Source: Candidatus Zixiibacteriota bacterium (GTDB lineage: Bacteria > Zixibacteria > MSB-5A5 > UBA10806). From it: a stretch of 40,989 nucleotides of DNA. The notes beneath the pieces are model-generated. The model made no database searches. It was not told the DNA's origin and saw only the letters and a list, made by a program, of their open reading frames with translations. The stretch covers positions 738,130 to 779,118 of the forward strand of contig CP070742.1 of NCBI GenBank assembly GCA_020348065.1, read 5' to 3'. Positions 12,022 through 18,547 of the stretch are shown here, piece by piece (the stretch's first letter is position 1; the number at the start of each line of letters is the position of its first letter). The translations under genes were made by a program, and so were the position numbers.

Positions 12022-13683
12022 ATGTCGATACATAATCAAGCACAGGACAATCGTATGCGTGGAACAGTATTTAATCTGCTAATCAATATTCCGGTTTTCT
12101 CCGGTATTTCGCCTGAACTATTTTACAAAATGGAGAAAGCCATAAACGAACGTAAATTCTCTAAAGGCGAATTAATATTCAAGGAAGGAGATCCGGGGGA
12201 CGCTTTTTATATTATCAAATCCGGAGCTGTCGAGATATTAAAAGGCGATCCTTCGAAAAACAGACAGATCAGGCTCGCGATTCGGGGCGAAGGCGATTTT
12301 TTCGGAGAAATGTCACTTCTCGAGGATTCCCCGCGATTCGCCTGCGCCAGAACAGTCCGGGATTCCACGGTACTGGAGATTTCCAGAGAAGACTTCAGAA
12401 ATCTGGTTGGCAAAAATCCGCCCATGGCCTTGGAAGTAATGGGTGTCCTATCATCGAGGATACGCGAAGCCGATCTTCAAATGATTCACGATCTCGAAAA
12501 GAAAAATGAGCAGCTGGAAAAAACCAACAGGCAATTAATAGAAACAACTCAGAAACTCCAGAAATCAAATGAAAATATTCGTTCCGCCAACAGATTCCTG
12601 GAGGCGATCATATCAGCATCCCAGTTTTTTATTGTTGTTACGGATAATTCCGGCAAGATATTCATTTTCAATAATGCCGCCAAAAAGGTATTTGGATATG
12701 AATTTAATGAAGTCGCTGGATGCGAGATCAGAGATATAATTAAACCTATTGATATTGAAGATATAATGGACGATTTGGAAAAGACTCTCTCCAGGGCCGA
12801 AAGCTGGTCGGGCGAGATAATCACCACCACGAAAAATAAGACCAAACGTGTCATCGAGCTTATCGGGGCGCGGATTCTGGATGATAAAGGCGAGATCTTC
12901 ACCTCCCTTTACATGGGGCTCGATGTTACCGAGGAAAAAAATATCGAGCATCAAATGATTCTTCTGGATAGAATGGCAACCAGAGGAGAAATGGCGGGAG
13001 AAATTGCCCACGAGCTGAATAATTACCTGGCTCTGGTTCAGGGAAATCTGGAACTTCTCAAAATGAACCTCGAGGTAGGTAAATACGAATTGCTGGAGGA
13101 AAAGTTAAATTCGATCCAATCGGGGCTGGAGGAGATGACGAAATTCACCGACGGTCTTATGATGTATTCGAATCCTGAAATAAATAAAGAGACCTTTAAT
13201 TTCAATATATTCATCGAGAACGAGCTGTTTTTCCTCAGACCCCAGACCAGATTCGATAGTGTCGATATAACATGCGAGCTGGATCCTGATCTGCCGCCCC
13301 TGATGGCCGACAGGAGTCAGTTGCAGCAGGTCCTTATCAATCTGCTCAATAACGCAGCCGATGCCACTTTGAATAACGAGCGCGGGCAGAGAAAGATAAG
13401 AATAAAAACGTCATATAAGTCAGATGAAAAAGCCATACTTCTATCCGTTAAGGATAACGGTTGCGGTTTCACCGAGGAATGTATAAACAAAGTCTTTTCT
13501 CAGCACTTCACTACTAAAGAGCGTGGGCATGGTTTCGGGCTTCTGGCTGTAAAAAGAGTAATAAAAAATCATGAAGGCAGGGTCTGGGCGGAAAACGATC
13601 CCGAGGGCGGAGCGATTTTCCGGGTACAACTTCCCGTTGATATCGCCGGCAAACAGCAAAATGTCGCCGTAAAAAGCTACTAA
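12022..13683 (+). CDS. Histidine kinase with cyclic-nucleotide-binding and PAS domains
   Basis: This is a soluble two-component sensor kinase of 553 residues with no membrane segment visible. Residues about 23-145 form a CRP-like cyclic-nucleotide-binding domain. Its phosphate-binding cassette reads FGEMSLLEDSPRFA, keeping Glu96 and Arg105, which contact the ribose and phosphate in this family. A coiled coil (about 150-190) leads to a PAS domain (191-305). The H box GEIAHELNN carries the phospho-acceptor His330, then come an N box (LINLLNNAADATL), G1 (VKDNGCGF) and G2 (GHGFGLLAVKRV). No receiver domain or response regulator is encoded next to it. No Shine-Dalgarno precedes the ATG at 12022. 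An in-frame ATG at 12055 with AGGA upstream is a real alternative. It begins a tight three-gene operon ending in a nucleotide cyclase. Confidence 0.9.
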   Translation: MSIHNQAQDNRMRGTVFNLLINIPVFSGISPELFYKMEKAINERKFSKGELIFKEGDPGDAFYIIKSGAVEILKGDPSKNRQIRLAIRGEGDFFGEMSLLEDSPRFACARTVRDSTVLEISREDFRNLVGKNPPMALEVMGVLSSRIREADLQMIHDLEKKNEQLEKTNRQLIETTQKLQKSNENIRSANRFLEAIISASQFFIVVTDNSGKIFIFNNAAKKVFGYEFNEVAGCEIRDIIKPIDIEDIMDDLEKTLSRAESWSGEIITTTKNKTKRVIELIGARILDDKGEIFTSLYMGLDVTEEKNIEHQMILLDRMATRGEMAGEIAHELNNYLALVQGNLELLKMNLEVGKYELLEEKLNSIQSGLEEMTKFTDGLMMYSNPEINKETFNFNIFIENELFFLRPQTRFDSVDITCELDPDLPPLMADRSQLQQVLINLLNNAADATLNNERGQRKIRIKTSYKSDEKAILLSVKDNGCGFTEECINKVFSQHFTTKERGHGFGLLAVKRVIKNHEGRVWAENDPEGGAIFRVQLPVDIAGKQQNVAVKSY

Positions 13684-13686
13684 TTT

Positions 13687-14040
13687 ATGGATGTTTTGTT
13701 CTTTCTTTTACTCGGTCATTTCTGCGGCGATTATGCGTTACAAACCGATAAAACCGCGGAAAGGAAAAAGTCTTCTACGGGCGTTTTAACGCGCCACGTC
13801 TTAATCTATACGATCTGCATCTGGGCTTTTCTGGCAATGTATTCCATTTTGTATTTGCCGGGATTATATTTGAAAACCGCCACAATACTATTTTTGGTTT
13901 TCCTGCTGATCGAGCACTGGGGACAGGATCATATAAAAAACAGGTTGGCAATCTGCACCAGGCAGATGCATTATATCGATCAGGTTGTTCACATAGCCTT
14001 ATTATATGTTTACAGAATATTTATCTTCCCCTACTATTAA
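13687..14040 (+). CDS. DUF3307 integral membrane protein
   Basis: This is a small inner-membrane protein of 117 residues that matches DUF3307. It opens LLLGHFCGDYALQTD, has RHVLIYTICIWAF in the second helix and ends in the DQVVHIALLYVY helix, giving about three or four membrane segments. Conserved His and Asp residues in the helices (GHFCGDY, DQVVH) are typical of the family, whose biochemical function is unknown. It starts three bases after the kinase stop and ends three bases before the cyclase start, with no clear ribosome site of its own, so it is probably translated by coupling. Its place between a soluble kinase and a soluble cyclase suggests that it provides the membrane or transport part of that signalling unit, which is an inference. 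Confidence 0.8.
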   Translation: MDVLFFLLLGHFCGDYALQTDKTAERKKSSTGVLTRHVLIYTICIWAFLAMYSILYLPGLYLKTATILFLVFLLIEHWGQDHIKNRLAICTRQMHYIDQVVHIALLYVYRIFIFPYY

Positions 14041-14043
14041 GTC

Positions 14044-17000
14044 ATGCACAAACTGAACATCAAATATCTGCTGCCCTACGTATCAAACAACATAATCGAT
14101 TCCCTGTCGTCAAAAGGGAGAACTGAAATAGTCCTGGAGGGATCTCTTGTCTTCGCCGATATTTCCGGTTTCACCGCCATGTCGGAGAAGCTCGCCGGCA
14201 TGGGCAGGATCGGTGGCGAGAAGCTTGCAGAAATAATCAACAGATGTTTCAATCCTCTGCTGGATGTTGTATTCGCGTGGGGCGGTGATGTTATAAAGTT
14301 CGGCGGTGACGCCTTTCTGGTGCTTTTTCAGGGCGACAATAAATCGGAGAGAGCTCTAGGCTGTGCTGTTGATTTAATCGACTGGATATCCGAAAACAGC
14401 AAAATCGAAACGCCGGCGGGCGATTTTAATCTGGGTATTCATGCCGGAATAAGCGAAGGTAAAATATTCAGTTATATCATCGGAAAAACGAGAAAAGACC
14501 ATCTCTTTTGCGGGGGAACCGTTGAAAAAGCCTACGCCGCGGCAGATGTCGCCGATCTGGGCCAGATAGCATTGACCCGGGAAGCGTCAAAAAATCTCAA
14601 GGGGGTCAGCTTTAAAGATATAAATGATGAATACTTCATTTTTCAACATGCGAAAAAAATCCGAAATAACGAAAAATCGCTACCCCAGCGCGGAAGCGCG
14701 GGAAAAAAACTTTCTGAGAAAGAGCTGGAAGCGTTTATCGATAAAAGACTAAAAGAACAACTTTACTATAATAACGGTCATATCGACGGCGAACATCGAA
14801 TTATCACGACCCTGTTTATCGGCATTAACTCGCTCAGAAAAAATTTAGAAAAAAATCCGGATCGCTCCTTAAAGACTATTCAGAATTATTTCGAGGTCCT
14901 CAGTGGCATTATAACAAAAAACGGAGGGTTTCTGGCCAGAATCGATTCCAGTTCGGTTTCGGAAAAAATACTCATATTTTTCGGGGCTCCCAATTGTTTC
15001 GGAAACGATGCCCGGAATTGCCTTCGAGCTGTACTTGAAATTGAATACGTCTTAAAACAGCTAAATGAGCATTTAATCCATCCTATCAGACATCGTTACG
15101 GCATAAACACCGGATTATGCTTCGTCGGAGACGTCGGCGGAGAGATCCGGCGCGAATATACAGCCATGGGAGACGCTATCAATCTGGCGGCCAGGCTGAT
15201 GTCAGGAGCCGAATATGGGGAGATCCTGGTCGGTGAGGAAACGGAAAAAACCTGCAGAGATGATTTTAAATTCAAAAGCCAGGCTGAAATTCGGGTAAAG
15301 GGCAAGAAAAAGCCGGTCAGAACATTTCTGCTGACAGCCGAAAAAGAACGTTTCCAGACAGATGCGGTTATGATCGGTCGCGATCCGGAATTGAAGCGCG
15401 CGGAATACTACATCGACAAGATCAAGAACAATGACAGGGATACGATGCTAATTACCGGGGAACCCGGCGCCGGAAAATCTCTTCTTTGTTTAAAATTAAA
15501 AGCCCTCGCGGCAGAGAAAGGAGTAACTTGTTATGAGGGAGCCTGTTACAGGCAACCCGAAAAAACCTCCTACGGCCCTGTCAAATCGATATTCCTGGAA
15601 ATACTTAACCTTGGCAAAAAATCATCGCAAAAAGAGAGGCGCGCGGCCCTTCAAAGGAGATTGAAAAATCTTGATGAATATGAATGGGAATCTCTTATCG
15701 CCCCTTTGCTCGATTACTTCCCGCCAGTACCCCCCCATCTGAAAAATTTGCCGGAGGAAACCAAAAAGAATAAAATTGAATCCATAATCTGCAGGCTTAT
15801 TTGCGGCGCGACGGGGCAAAGTAATGCTGTCATTATAATCGAGGATATCCAGTGGATTGATAATGCCTCGTTCGAAATCATCAAGCTTCTATTGAAATCA
15901 AATGATGCGCCGGGTCTATTATTCGTCGGCAGGCCGGACGATATATCCGAGGAATTAAAAAATCTCGCGGATCTCGATGTGATCGAACTCGGCGCCCTGA
16001 CCCTGGAAAGTTCGAGAGAGCTTTTCCTTGCGGTATTAAAGGACAGGAGGCCCGACGAGTCTATCATCAATAACGTCATAGAAAAGTCGGGCGGAAATCC
16101 CTTTTACCTGGAGGAGATGGCAAAAGCCTTTGTTGAGCTCGGGGAAGACAGATTTAGCAGACCGGAGAATATCCCCTCCGGGATAGAATCCGTGATAACG
16201 GCCAGGATTGATAACCTCGGCGAAATGGAAAAAAAGACGGTCCGGACGGCAAGCATTATAGGACGCGTTTTCGGTTATCAAGTATTAAAGGAGATTTTTC
16301 CGGATCGTAGCCGAATCGGCATGCTCAGAGATTACCTTAATAAGCTGGTTCGCCTGGATTTAACACCTTTAGAAAGAGTACAACCGGTACTCGAATATAT
16401 ATTCAAGCATATCCTTACCCAGGAAGTGGCCTATAATGGCCTCTCGTTCTCCGCCAGAAAATCGCTGCACATCAAAACCGCAGAATATTTCGCCTCTCGA
16501 AAAAGGCTGGTCAAAAGGACGCCGGAGACGATAGCCGGGCATTTTATAAAAGCCGAGGAATTTGGAAAGGCGTTGCCATACCTGATTCTGGCCGGTAAGA
16601 AGGCAGCATCGGAATTCGCCAATAAAGAGGCTTTTGAATACTTCGGCAAATCCCTTGAAACCGCGGAGAAATTGAACCGGGGCGAATATGTAATCGAATC
16701 TTTAAAAAACAGAGGTCTTCTGGCAAAAGATACGGCCGAATATCAAAGAGCAGTGAGCGATCTCAGAAGACTTGAGACTCTGGCCGGGGATAATGTCGAA
16801 CTCAAATCGTTTTCGGCGAGAGAGCTTTCATTCATTTACCGTATGATGGGCGACTATGATAAAGCCGCGGTATCATTAAGTGAGCTGGAAAGAACCATTC
16901 CCGATGACATCCCGGCCCGGGTGTTTTGCCTGAACGGTAGAGCCGAGATTGCTCGACGCAGCGGAAAACTGCCACAATGCCGGGAATTGCTCTTAAAAGC

Positions 17001-18114
17001 GCTGGATATCATCGGTAAATATGAAATTGATCGGGGCCTGATTGCGACGGTATTTAACAACCTGGGGATCTGTCACTGGAGCCTGGGAAAGCTAAAAGAC
17101 GCCGAAAGCCATTATAAAACCGCATTAAAATATTATAAGAAACAGAAAAATCTGGGGGGCCAGTCGAAAATTATAAACAACCTGGGGATAATAAGTGACG
17201 AGCTCGGTAAATTGCATCACGCGGCATCATCTTACGAAAAGGCTGAAAAAATCTTTAAGCGTATTGGGGCGTCAAGATCGGAAGCCTACGCCTGCGCGAA
17301 TCTCGGAACCAACCTGATGTCCCGCGGCCACCTTACAAAGGCTCTGGAGAAGCTTTTCAGAGCAAAAGAGATTTTCGATAGAATCGGCGACCAGCACAGC
17401 TCTGCCTATACCCTGGGTGATATCGGTTTTGTCCGGTACCGCCAGGGAGATATAGAAAAGGCGCGGGAACTGAACGGAGCCGCAATCAACAAGGCGACGG
17501 AGCTTAATGACGAGGAGCTAATTCTCGAATCCAGAATCAGGCGCGGGAGAATAGAGGTTTACTCCGAAAAAGCCGAAATGACGGAAATCGAAAAACTGAT
17601 CGATATGGCCAGGAAAGCGGGATCATCCGAATTAGAAATCAAAGCGACAATACTAAGAATTTACGCCTACTTTATTTCCTCAGACATGAGAACCGTCCGG
17701 AACACCCTAAACCAAATCGATACGCTGGAAGAGATTAAAAATTACCCGGAGCTTCGGCTTGAACTCGCCGTTCTCAGAATCGCTTCCGAATATTCTCAGG
17801 GGGATCGGGAAAAAGCGCTAAAACTTTTAAAAGATTCAATCCGAGAAAGCTCTTCAAGGGATCTTGCATTGGTGGTTTCCGATTTATCCGCGGTCGGTAA
17901 TGCCTGCAACCTAATGCAAAAAATCCCGGAAAAAACCGGATTGACAATCGGCCGATATAACTCCCGCCCGATCTCGGGCTTAAACGAAAGTGAAATTGAA
18001 AAATACAGGGCTTTTCAGCGAAGAACGATAGAGTTTTATAGAAAATCCATTGAATCTACTCTAAATAATGCCGCAGAATTTGACAGGCAAAAAGAAAAGC
18101 GTTCGTCGTTATAA
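14044..18114 (+). CDS. Tandem class III nucleotide cyclase with AAA-type ATPase and TPR repeats (soluble adenylyl cyclase-like)
   Basis: This is a 1356-residue cytoplasmic protein. The first cyclase domain (about 28-200) has FADISGFTAMSE with Asp39 and VIKFGGDAF with Lys85 and Asp89, the two metal-binding aspartates. It lacks the usual Asn/Arg pair. The second cyclase domain (about 250-430) has lost the first metal Asp (Gly260 in TLFIGINSL) but keeps EYTAMGDAINLAARL, with Thr373, Asn380 and Arg384. Together they can form one composite site, as in animal ADCY10. Next comes a P-loop ATPase with Walker A GEPGAGKS (472-479) and Walker B VIIIEDIQWID (596-606). From about 830 the C-terminal part is TPR repeats (for example FNNLGICHWSLGKLKDAE). 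It is third in the operon after the cyclic-nucleotide-binding kinase. Production of cAMP rather than cGMP is inferred. Confidence 0.9.
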   Translation: MHKLNIKYLLPYVSNNIIDSLSSKGRTEIVLEGSLVFADISGFTAMSEKLAGMGRIGGEKLAEIINRCFNPLLDVVFAWGGDVIKFGGDAFLVLFQGDNKSERALGCAVDLIDWISENSKIETPAGDFNLGIHAGISEGKIFSYIIGKTRKDHLFCGGTVEKAYAAADVADLGQIALTREASKNLKGVSFKDINDEYFIFQHAKKIRNNEKSLPQRGSAGKKLSEKELEAFIDKRLKEQLYYNNGHIDGEHRIITTLFIGINSLRKNLEKNPDRSLKTIQNYFEVLSGIITKNGGFLARIDSSSVSEKILIFFGAPNCFGNDARNCLRAVLEIEYVLKQLNEHLIHPIRHRYGINTGLCFVGDVGGEIRREYTAMGDAINLAARLMSGAEYGEILVGEETEKTCRDDFKFKSQAEIRVKGKKKPVRTFLLTAEKERFQTDAVMIGRDPELKRAEYYIDKIKNNDRDTMLITGEPGAGKSLLCLKLKALAAEKGVTCYEGACYRQPEKTSYGPVKSIFLEILNLGKKSSQKERRAALQRRLKNLDEYEWESLIAPLLDYFPPVPPHLKNLPEETKKNKIESIICRLICGATGQSNAVIIIEDIQWIDNASFEIIKLLLKSNDAPGLLFVGRPDDISEELKNLADLDVIELGALTLESSRELFLAVLKDRRPDESIINNVIEKSGGNPFYLEEMAKAFVELGEDRFSRPENIPSGIESVITARIDNLGEMEKKTVRTASIIGRVFGYQVLKEIFPDRSRIGMLRDYLNKLVRLDLTPLERVQPVLEYIFKHILTQEVAYNGLSFSARKSLHIKTAEYFASRKRLVKRTPETIAGHFIKAEEFGKALPYLILAGKKAASEFANKEAFEYFGKSLETAEKLNRGEYVIESLKNRGLLAKDTAEYQRAVSDLRRLETLAGDNVELKSFSARELSFIYRMMGDYDKAAVSLSELERTIPDDIPARVFCLNGRAEIARRSGKLPQCRELLLKALDIIGKYEIDRGLIATVFNNLGICHWSLGKLKDAESHYKTALKYYKKQKNLGGQSKIINNLGIISDELGKLHHAASSYEKAEKIFKRIGASRSEAYACANLGTNLMSRGHLTKALEKLFRAKEIFDRIGDQHSSAYTLGDIGFVRYRQGDIEKARELNGAAINKATELNDEELILESRIRRGRIEVYSEKAEMTEIEKLIDMARKAGSSELEIKATILRIYAYFISSDMRTVRNTLNQIDTLEEIKNYPELRLELAVLRIASEYSQGDREKALKLLKDSIRESSSRDLALVVSDLSAVGNACNLMQKIPEKTGLTIGRYNSRPISGLNESEIEKYRAFQRRTIEFYRKSIESTLNNAAEFDRQKEKRSSL

Positions 18115-18220: not shown

Positions 18221-18547
18221 ATGAGTGATAAAATAATAAACACCGATTCATTCGGTCAGAAAGTAAAAAAGCTGATCAGAAGCATACCGAGGGGTAAGGT
18301 CGCGACTTACGGGCAGATCGCCGCCTACGGCGGAAATCCGCTGGCCGCCAGGCAGGTGGTCAGGATACTCCATACTTCATCAAATAAGGAGCGTTTGCCC
18401 TGGCACAGGGTAATAAACCGCAAGGGGCAAATAGCGTTAAAGCCCGGTCAGGGTTACGAAATGCAAAAACAGCTTCTGCAAAAAGAGGGCGTAACATTCA
18501 ACGATTCCGATACCATCGATTTAAAAAAGTTTCTATGGAAAAAATAA
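18221..18547 (+). CDS. Alkyltransferase-like protein (ATL, MGMT family without the active cysteine)
   Basis: This is a DNA repair accessory protein of 108 residues. The fold is that of the DNA-binding C-terminal domain of O6-alkylguanine-DNA alkyltransferase: IPRGKVATYGQIAAYGG carries the recognition helix region, and ARQVVRIL is present with the conserved Arg finger expected in this stretch. The catalytic PCHRV motif is replaced by PWHRVIN, with Trp in place of Cys, the hallmark of ATL proteins. These bind O6-alkylguanine, flip the base and hand the lesion to nucleotide excision repair rather than removing the alkyl group. The length matches ATL proteins. The gene stands alone between the cyclase operon and the symporter. 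No Shine-Dalgarno is obvious upstream of the ATG. Confidence 0.88.
   Translation: MSDKIINTDSFGQKVKKLIRSIPRGKVATYGQIAAYGGNPLAARQVVRILHTSSNKERLPWHRVINRKGQIALKPGQGYEMQKQLLQKEGVTFNDSDTIDLKKFLWKK

Follow-up and report, generated by a model that had tools for sequence, protein, structure and literature searches.

Introduction

According to a 2024 review, cyclic AMP (cAMP) acts globally only through CRP, the catabolite activator protein, in most bacteria (PMC11139211). Here, we describe an operon of the uncultured phylum Candidatus Zixiibacteriota in which a histidine kinase bearing a cyclic-nucleotide-binding (CNB) domain, a membrane protein of the DUF3307 family and a class III nucleotide cyclase are encoded one after the other. 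This trio lies in a stretch of 40,989 nucleotides (contig CP070742.1, positions 738,130 to 779,118; hereafter, the window), which belongs to a single-contig genome of 3.74 Mb. The trio shares with the CRP pathway a CNB domain that would read a cyclic nucleotide (cNMP) supplied by a cyclase. However, a histidine kinase takes the place of the DNA-binding factor as the reader, and the CRP-like protein of this genome is devoid of the canonical cassette.

Control of histidine kinases by a bound second messenger is known from ShkA and CckA of Caulobacter, where direct binding of cyclic di-GMP (c-di-GMP) shifts the balance between kinase and phosphatase (PMC11139211). These proteins resemble the trio kinase in that the messenger would be bound by the kinase itself, and differ from it in the messenger and in the binding site. 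To our knowledge, neither has been described as forming one operon with the enzyme for its messenger. In the CyaC-type cyclases of cyanobacteria, which contain histidine kinase and receiver modules, a phosphorelay is physically coupled to a class III cyclase (cited in PMC1183210). There, the phosphorelay drives the cyclase, whereas the domain order of the trio suggests that control runs from the cyclase product to the kinase. Genome surveys have also recorded CNB domains in two-component proteins (PMC4618731, PMC9953108), but only counted them, and no ligand source, operon or function was described. Finally, the trio cyclase resembles human soluble adenylyl cyclase (sAC, ADCY10) and similar class III enzymes of bacteria, having tandem C1 and C2 domains with a single predicted composite site, followed by NTPase and TPR regions; it differs in that a CNB kinase and DUF3307 are encoded in the same operon.

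An original prediction, made from the letters of the window, knew of no described system with such a trio. In the searched literature, which comprised few subscription papers, we found neither this trio nor an equivalent, and no histidine kinase described as gated by cAMP. From the comparative evidence given below, we consider it fairly probable that these genes form a two-component pathway of their own, dedicated to a cyclic nucleotide and leading from cAMP (or cGMP) to the histidine kinase. If true, cAMP signalling would be joined directly to a phosphorelay, as is known for c-di-GMP.

Organization and conservation of the trio

The three genes lie on the plus strand, with an intergenic distance of exactly 3 bases at both junctions. 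The first (12022-13683) encodes a CNB-PAS-histidine kinase of 553 residues without a receiver domain, the second (13687-14040) a DUF3307 (PF11750) membrane protein of 117 residues, and the third (14044-18114) a protein of 1356 residues. The gene layout, the CNB kinase and the DUF3307 assignment of the original prediction all held, while its cyclase proved, on the basis of Pfam and of an alignment to ADCY10, to be more exactly a double class III cyclase/AAA NTPase/TPR protein of soluble adenylyl cyclase architecture.

Among 132 Zixibacteria genomes, 32 contained DUF3307, and we inspected the surroundings of the 31 DUF3307 loci other than that of the window. Of these 32 genomes, 29 (28 relatives and that of the window) have the order kinase-DUF3307-cyclase on one strand. 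Gaps between the genes of the relatives mostly ranged from -62 to +28 bases, larger negative values being an artefact of automatic start choice. Identity to the window fell as low as 23% for the kinase, 32% for DUF3307 and 20% for the cyclase among trio relatives, and the distance matrices of kinase and cyclase correlated with r = 0.91. The flanking genes varied, the sole family present in many loci being a lipoprotein, found in about half of them. The trio order is far beyond chance, and the co-occurrence on which the original prediction had made itself depend is conserved amid changing neighbours. Of the three remaining genomes, G065 carries a longer DUF3307 whose surroundings are unrelated to the trio. 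A partial contig labelled Calditrichaeota (L070), a label that may be wrong, displays the same trio order.

One cyclase and one canonical receptor

The presence and absence of the components are matched. DUF3307 and the cyclase family PF00211 occurred together in 30 of the 132 genomes, DUF3307 alone in 2, the cyclase alone in 7 and neither in 93 (Fisher 1e-20), and a whole-kinase profile detected full-length CNB-kinases in 30/32 DUF3307-positive genomes compared with 3/100 of the others (Fisher 6e-24); both p-values ignore shared ancestry.

The CNB domain (residues 43-131; 12148-12414, plus strand, as are all features below) was recognized by Pfam (PF00027, 7e-25), and its relatives in the PDB are the CNB domains of PKG, PKA-R and CRP type. 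Its phosphate-binding cassette, FGEMSLLEDSPRFA (12301-12342), contains Glu96 (12307-12309) and Arg105 (12334-12336), the two residues already pointed out in the original prediction, which are kept in 29/29 trio-type rows of the kinase alignment. The domain is followed by a PAS domain (12595-12939; PAS_9, 1.5e-13), a HisKA phospho-acceptor domain (12982-13173; 1.6e-6) with His330 (13009-13011) in the motif AHELNNYL, and a HATPase_c domain (13309-13641; 2.4e-24). Besides H330, which is kept in 28/29 trio-type rows, the kinase displays the N and G boxes (NLLNNAADA, DNGCG and GHGFGL).

Both PF00211 matches of the window genome (G000; 95% complete), in a search for class III cyclases only, fall in the trio gene. 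The same genome encodes five CNB proteins. The Glu and Arg of the cassette are present in the trio kinase alone; the corresponding cassettes of the other four are IGEAALFADGAYPAYA, CGSTTLFGDIHRNSA, LGWSWLVPPHKWSYD and FGTWALFDDEPRVVTA. Likewise, in G115, G116, G027, G026 and G127, PF00211 was found only in the trio gene and the trio kinase is the only canonical CNB protein. G007 is the exception, as it encodes one further cyclase (C14) and one further canonical CNB protein (FGEVSLLTGEERSATV, L162), so that six of the seven trio genomes checked have one class III cyclase and one canonical CNB domain. Judged by sequence, a putatively competent cyclase adjoins the only canonical CNB receptor in the genome.

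These counts bear on the direction of signalling. The kinase could instead stand upstream, its PAS domain sensing redox, light or a ligand and its CNB domain serving as a feedback brake that responds to total cNMP, with the main output of the cyclase lying elsewhere, in a CRP-type factor. A PAS domain is indeed present, and one of the four other CNB proteins of the genome is CRP-like. However, none of these four has the canonical Glu/Arg cassette, and no standard cNMP reader besides the kinase is visible in five of the six further trio genomes either, which makes this arrangement unlikely in our view.

Kinases in genomes without the cyclase

Four genomes (G128, G105, G108 and G056) contain a relative of the CNB-kinase and no PF00211 gene, and in all of them the kinase is damaged. 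Arg105 is changed to His in G128 and to Pro in G105, where the phospho-acceptor His has also been lost, as it has in G108. In G056 (L180:1895-3007), the kinase breaks off inside HisKA and continues, in the same frame, into the tail of DUF3307; this fusion is an operon fossil. Kinases adjoining a visible cyclase, on the other hand, retained Glu and Arg in 28/28 cases and the phospho-acceptor His in 27/28. Counting locus L060, intact kinases amount to 28/29 in trio-type loci and 0/4 in genomes without the cyclase (p about 1e-4). Two additional paralogs, in genomes with a trio cyclase (G129 and G130), have kept all three residues. Small as these numbers are, their direction is clear: the CNB-kinase decays once the cyclase is gone.

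The same observations speak to whether the three genes are related in function at all. The operon might be neutral or join unrelated functions, with the CNB domain binding another ligand or none: the residue after Arg105, Phe106, is unusual, and the cyclic nucleotide is a predicted ligand. Yet the order has been kept at 20-30% identity despite reshuffled neighbours, gains and losses are matched, and Glu and Arg are invariant where a cyclase is visible and damage appears where it is absent. We therefore hold an unrelated operon to be very improbable.

The cyclase

The third protein comprises two cyclase domains, C1 (14125-14643) and C2 (14785-15339), which Pfam recognized as two stretches of Guanylate_cyc, an AAA_16 NTPase domain with the P-loop GEPGAGKS (15373-15927; 1.4e-15) and a TPR region (16561-17943; TPR_12, 8.7e-29). 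Both cyclase halves aligned to ADCY10 in phmmer. An AlphaFold model of C1-C2, with a predicted local distance difference test (pLDDT) score of 86.7, found its best match in the crystal structures of human sAC, with template-modelling (TM) scores of 0.73-0.80 over the full C1-C2 region.

Eight residues are invariant in 19/19 aligned cyclases: D39, K85 and D89 in C1, and R299, D301, T373, N380 and R384 in C2. Both metal-binding Asp residues (D39 and D89) are held by C1, while the transition-state Asn and Arg (N380 and R384) come from C2. This arrangement, with the metal Asps and Lys in C1 and Thr, Asn and Arg in C2, is that of human sAC, and since the metal Asps have been lost from C2, the trio cyclase is predicted to have one composite active site like the human enzyme. 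Of the adenine contacts in C2, the equivalent of Thr405 is kept as T373 and the position of Lys334 is occupied by the invariant R299. Judging from Thr373, cAMP is a more likely product than cGMP.

In sAC, Arg176 of C1 is the bicarbonate-binding residue. Here, a Tyr takes its place in the cyclase of the window, and most relatives also have a residue other than Arg. A bicarbonate-sensing sAC is not favoured, and bicarbonate control of the trio cyclase is not expected, because this Arg is missing.

The DUF3307 protein

The middle protein matched the DUF3307 profile with 52.3 bits against a cut-off of 23 (Pfam 7.4e-14). Its AlphaFold2 model (pLDDT 92) is all-helical, and a fold search of the PDB with this model gave no meaningful match. 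In an alignment with 50 relatives, mostly from other phyla, H11, D15, Q19, K27, H37, H77, D81, K84, D98, Q99 and H102 are near-invariant wherever aligned; those in common with other phyla are H11, D15, Q19, H37, H77, D81, D98, Q99 and H102. The conserved polar residues sit at helix ends beside two Lys/Arg-rich loops, 18-30 and 86-91. By the positive-inside rule, these loops, and thus the polar site, are predicted to be cytoplasmic.

Outside Zixibacteria (28 genomes), a PF00211 cyclase lies within 5 kb of DUF3307 in 9/30 loci, compared with 0.26 expected. Only this close linkage is significant; the association by presence and absence is not (p = 0.09). The link in other phyla is frequent and not universal, because DUF3307 also occurs in genomes without a class III cyclase (5/28). 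In two gammaproteobacterial loci, DUF3307 adjoins sAC-like cyclases. Since it is linked to cyclases in other phyla, DUF3307 appears to be a functional partner of cyclases and not the bystander as which the original prediction had left it. The searched library contained a single mention of the family, and the context of the trio provides a first functional lead for this widespread membrane family.

Several further arrangements were observed in other phyla. Gene runs of cyclase, HD_5 domain protein and DUF3307 (L125, L136 and L154) or of cyclase, DUF2254-like membrane protein and DUF3307 (L134 and L145) were found, and some other DUF3307 loci adjoin a CNB gene. In picocyanobacteria (Cyanobium/Synechococcus/Prochlorococcus; L088-L103), the genes for DUF3307, for a class III cyclase and for a CNB protein repeatedly lie only a few kb apart. 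A scan of viral sequences for DUF3307 yielded no related locus, and a viral structure library contained phage proteins of DUF3307 fold, some from jumbo phages, all with E >0.001 (BFVD A0A8S5PQC1, A0A6J5RHJ6 and A0A1L7N193). Weak similarities of DUF3307 to other Pfam families (UbiA, desaturase, HXXEE and others) were scattered, did not rise above chance and were discarded.

DUF3307 might also be the effector itself, an enzyme, receptor or channel-like protein set by the cyclase/kinase pair, with the output of the kinase acting on DUF3307 rather than on a response regulator. Its near-invariant polar core, its linkage to class III cyclases without a kinase in other phyla and the lack of a nearby response regulator agree with such a role. 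Its occurrence in genomes devoid of class III cyclases and in phages, on the contrary, points to wider roles, and no direct phosphotransfer link is known. We consider this quite improbable.

Proposed pathway

We return to the dedicated pathway from cyclase to kinase. In the third protein, an input would be sensed by the STAND-like AAA/TPR part, which would turn on the C1-C2 cyclase to make cAMP (or, less likely, cGMP) at its composite site. Binding of the product to the CNB domain would then shift the autophosphorylation or phosphatase activity of the kinase, and the message would be passed on, as phosphate, to an unlinked response regulator. DUF3307 may act as a small membrane partner of the pair, serving as a membrane anchor, a membrane receptor or an enzyme; its polar site would lie on the cytoplasmic side. 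The product's identity, its binding to the kinase, the direction of kinase control, the TPR input and the role and topology of DUF3307 are what we infer from these sequences.

That the product of the cyclase is the ligand of the kinase was the central proposal of the original prediction. It gains comparative support because the trio is conserved, its parts are matched in presence and absence, one cyclase accompanies one canonical CNB domain, and the CNB-kinase is damaged where the cyclase is absent; it keeps its standing as a proposal. The circuit had also been called closed. The term is supported if it denotes a sender and a receiver that are private to each other; for a loop by which the kinase feeds back on the cyclase, we found no evidence.

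Several points weigh against the dedicated pathway. Two bear on base preference: the adenine-specifying Lys of C2 is Arg in every relative, and Arg105 of the cassette is followed by Phe106 where Ala, Ser or Thr is usual. One kinase (L045, in G094) keeps its CNB cassette and has lost the phospho-acceptor His (AHELN to ACTMG). In G123 (L060), the contig ends after kinase and DUF3307, before any cyclase, and in G024 a cyclase piece precedes DUF3307 with no linked kinase. The co-occurrence statistics take no account of shared ancestry, and the cyclase searches covered class III only. Finally, no response regulator is linked to the trio: as the original prediction had noted, none adjoins it in the window, and no recurrent neighbour in the relatives resembles one. 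An unlinked response regulator could still be the partner of the kinase.

A broader proposal can be put forward only tentatively, and we hold it somewhat doubtful as a whole. Zixibacteria may have replaced cAMP-CRP by a private pathway from cyclase to CNB-histidine kinase, and DUF3307 may be a general, hitherto unrecognised component at the membrane for cyclic-nucleotide signalling in bacteria. It might be a membrane enzyme, such as a phosphodiesterase, or a receptor, and would control the cNMP level or cyclase activity through a His/Asp site of metal type.

Neighbouring genes

Promoter and terminator scans gave signals barely above those of shuffled sequence. In about half of the trio loci (L032, L033, L040, L041, L050, L056 and others), the cyclase is directly followed by a lipoprotein family of ~200 residues ('YEFGPDGLVFS...HFSRYG', weakly ZU5-like), sometimes in tandem arrays of 3-6. 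The family was present in 12/13 trio genomes and in 1/8 non-trio genomes tested, and it is a possible output of the trio. It was rejected as a fixed fourth gene, as it adjoins only about half of the loci and lies elsewhere in the genome of the window (L182:7046-7600), beside putative phosphoenolpyruvate carboxykinase and glycogen phosphorylase genes named by eye. Downstream of the trio in the window, an open reading frame at 18221-18547 encodes 108 residues comprising only the DNA-binding domain of O6-methylguanine-DNA methyltransferase, probably of the alkyltransferase-like type.

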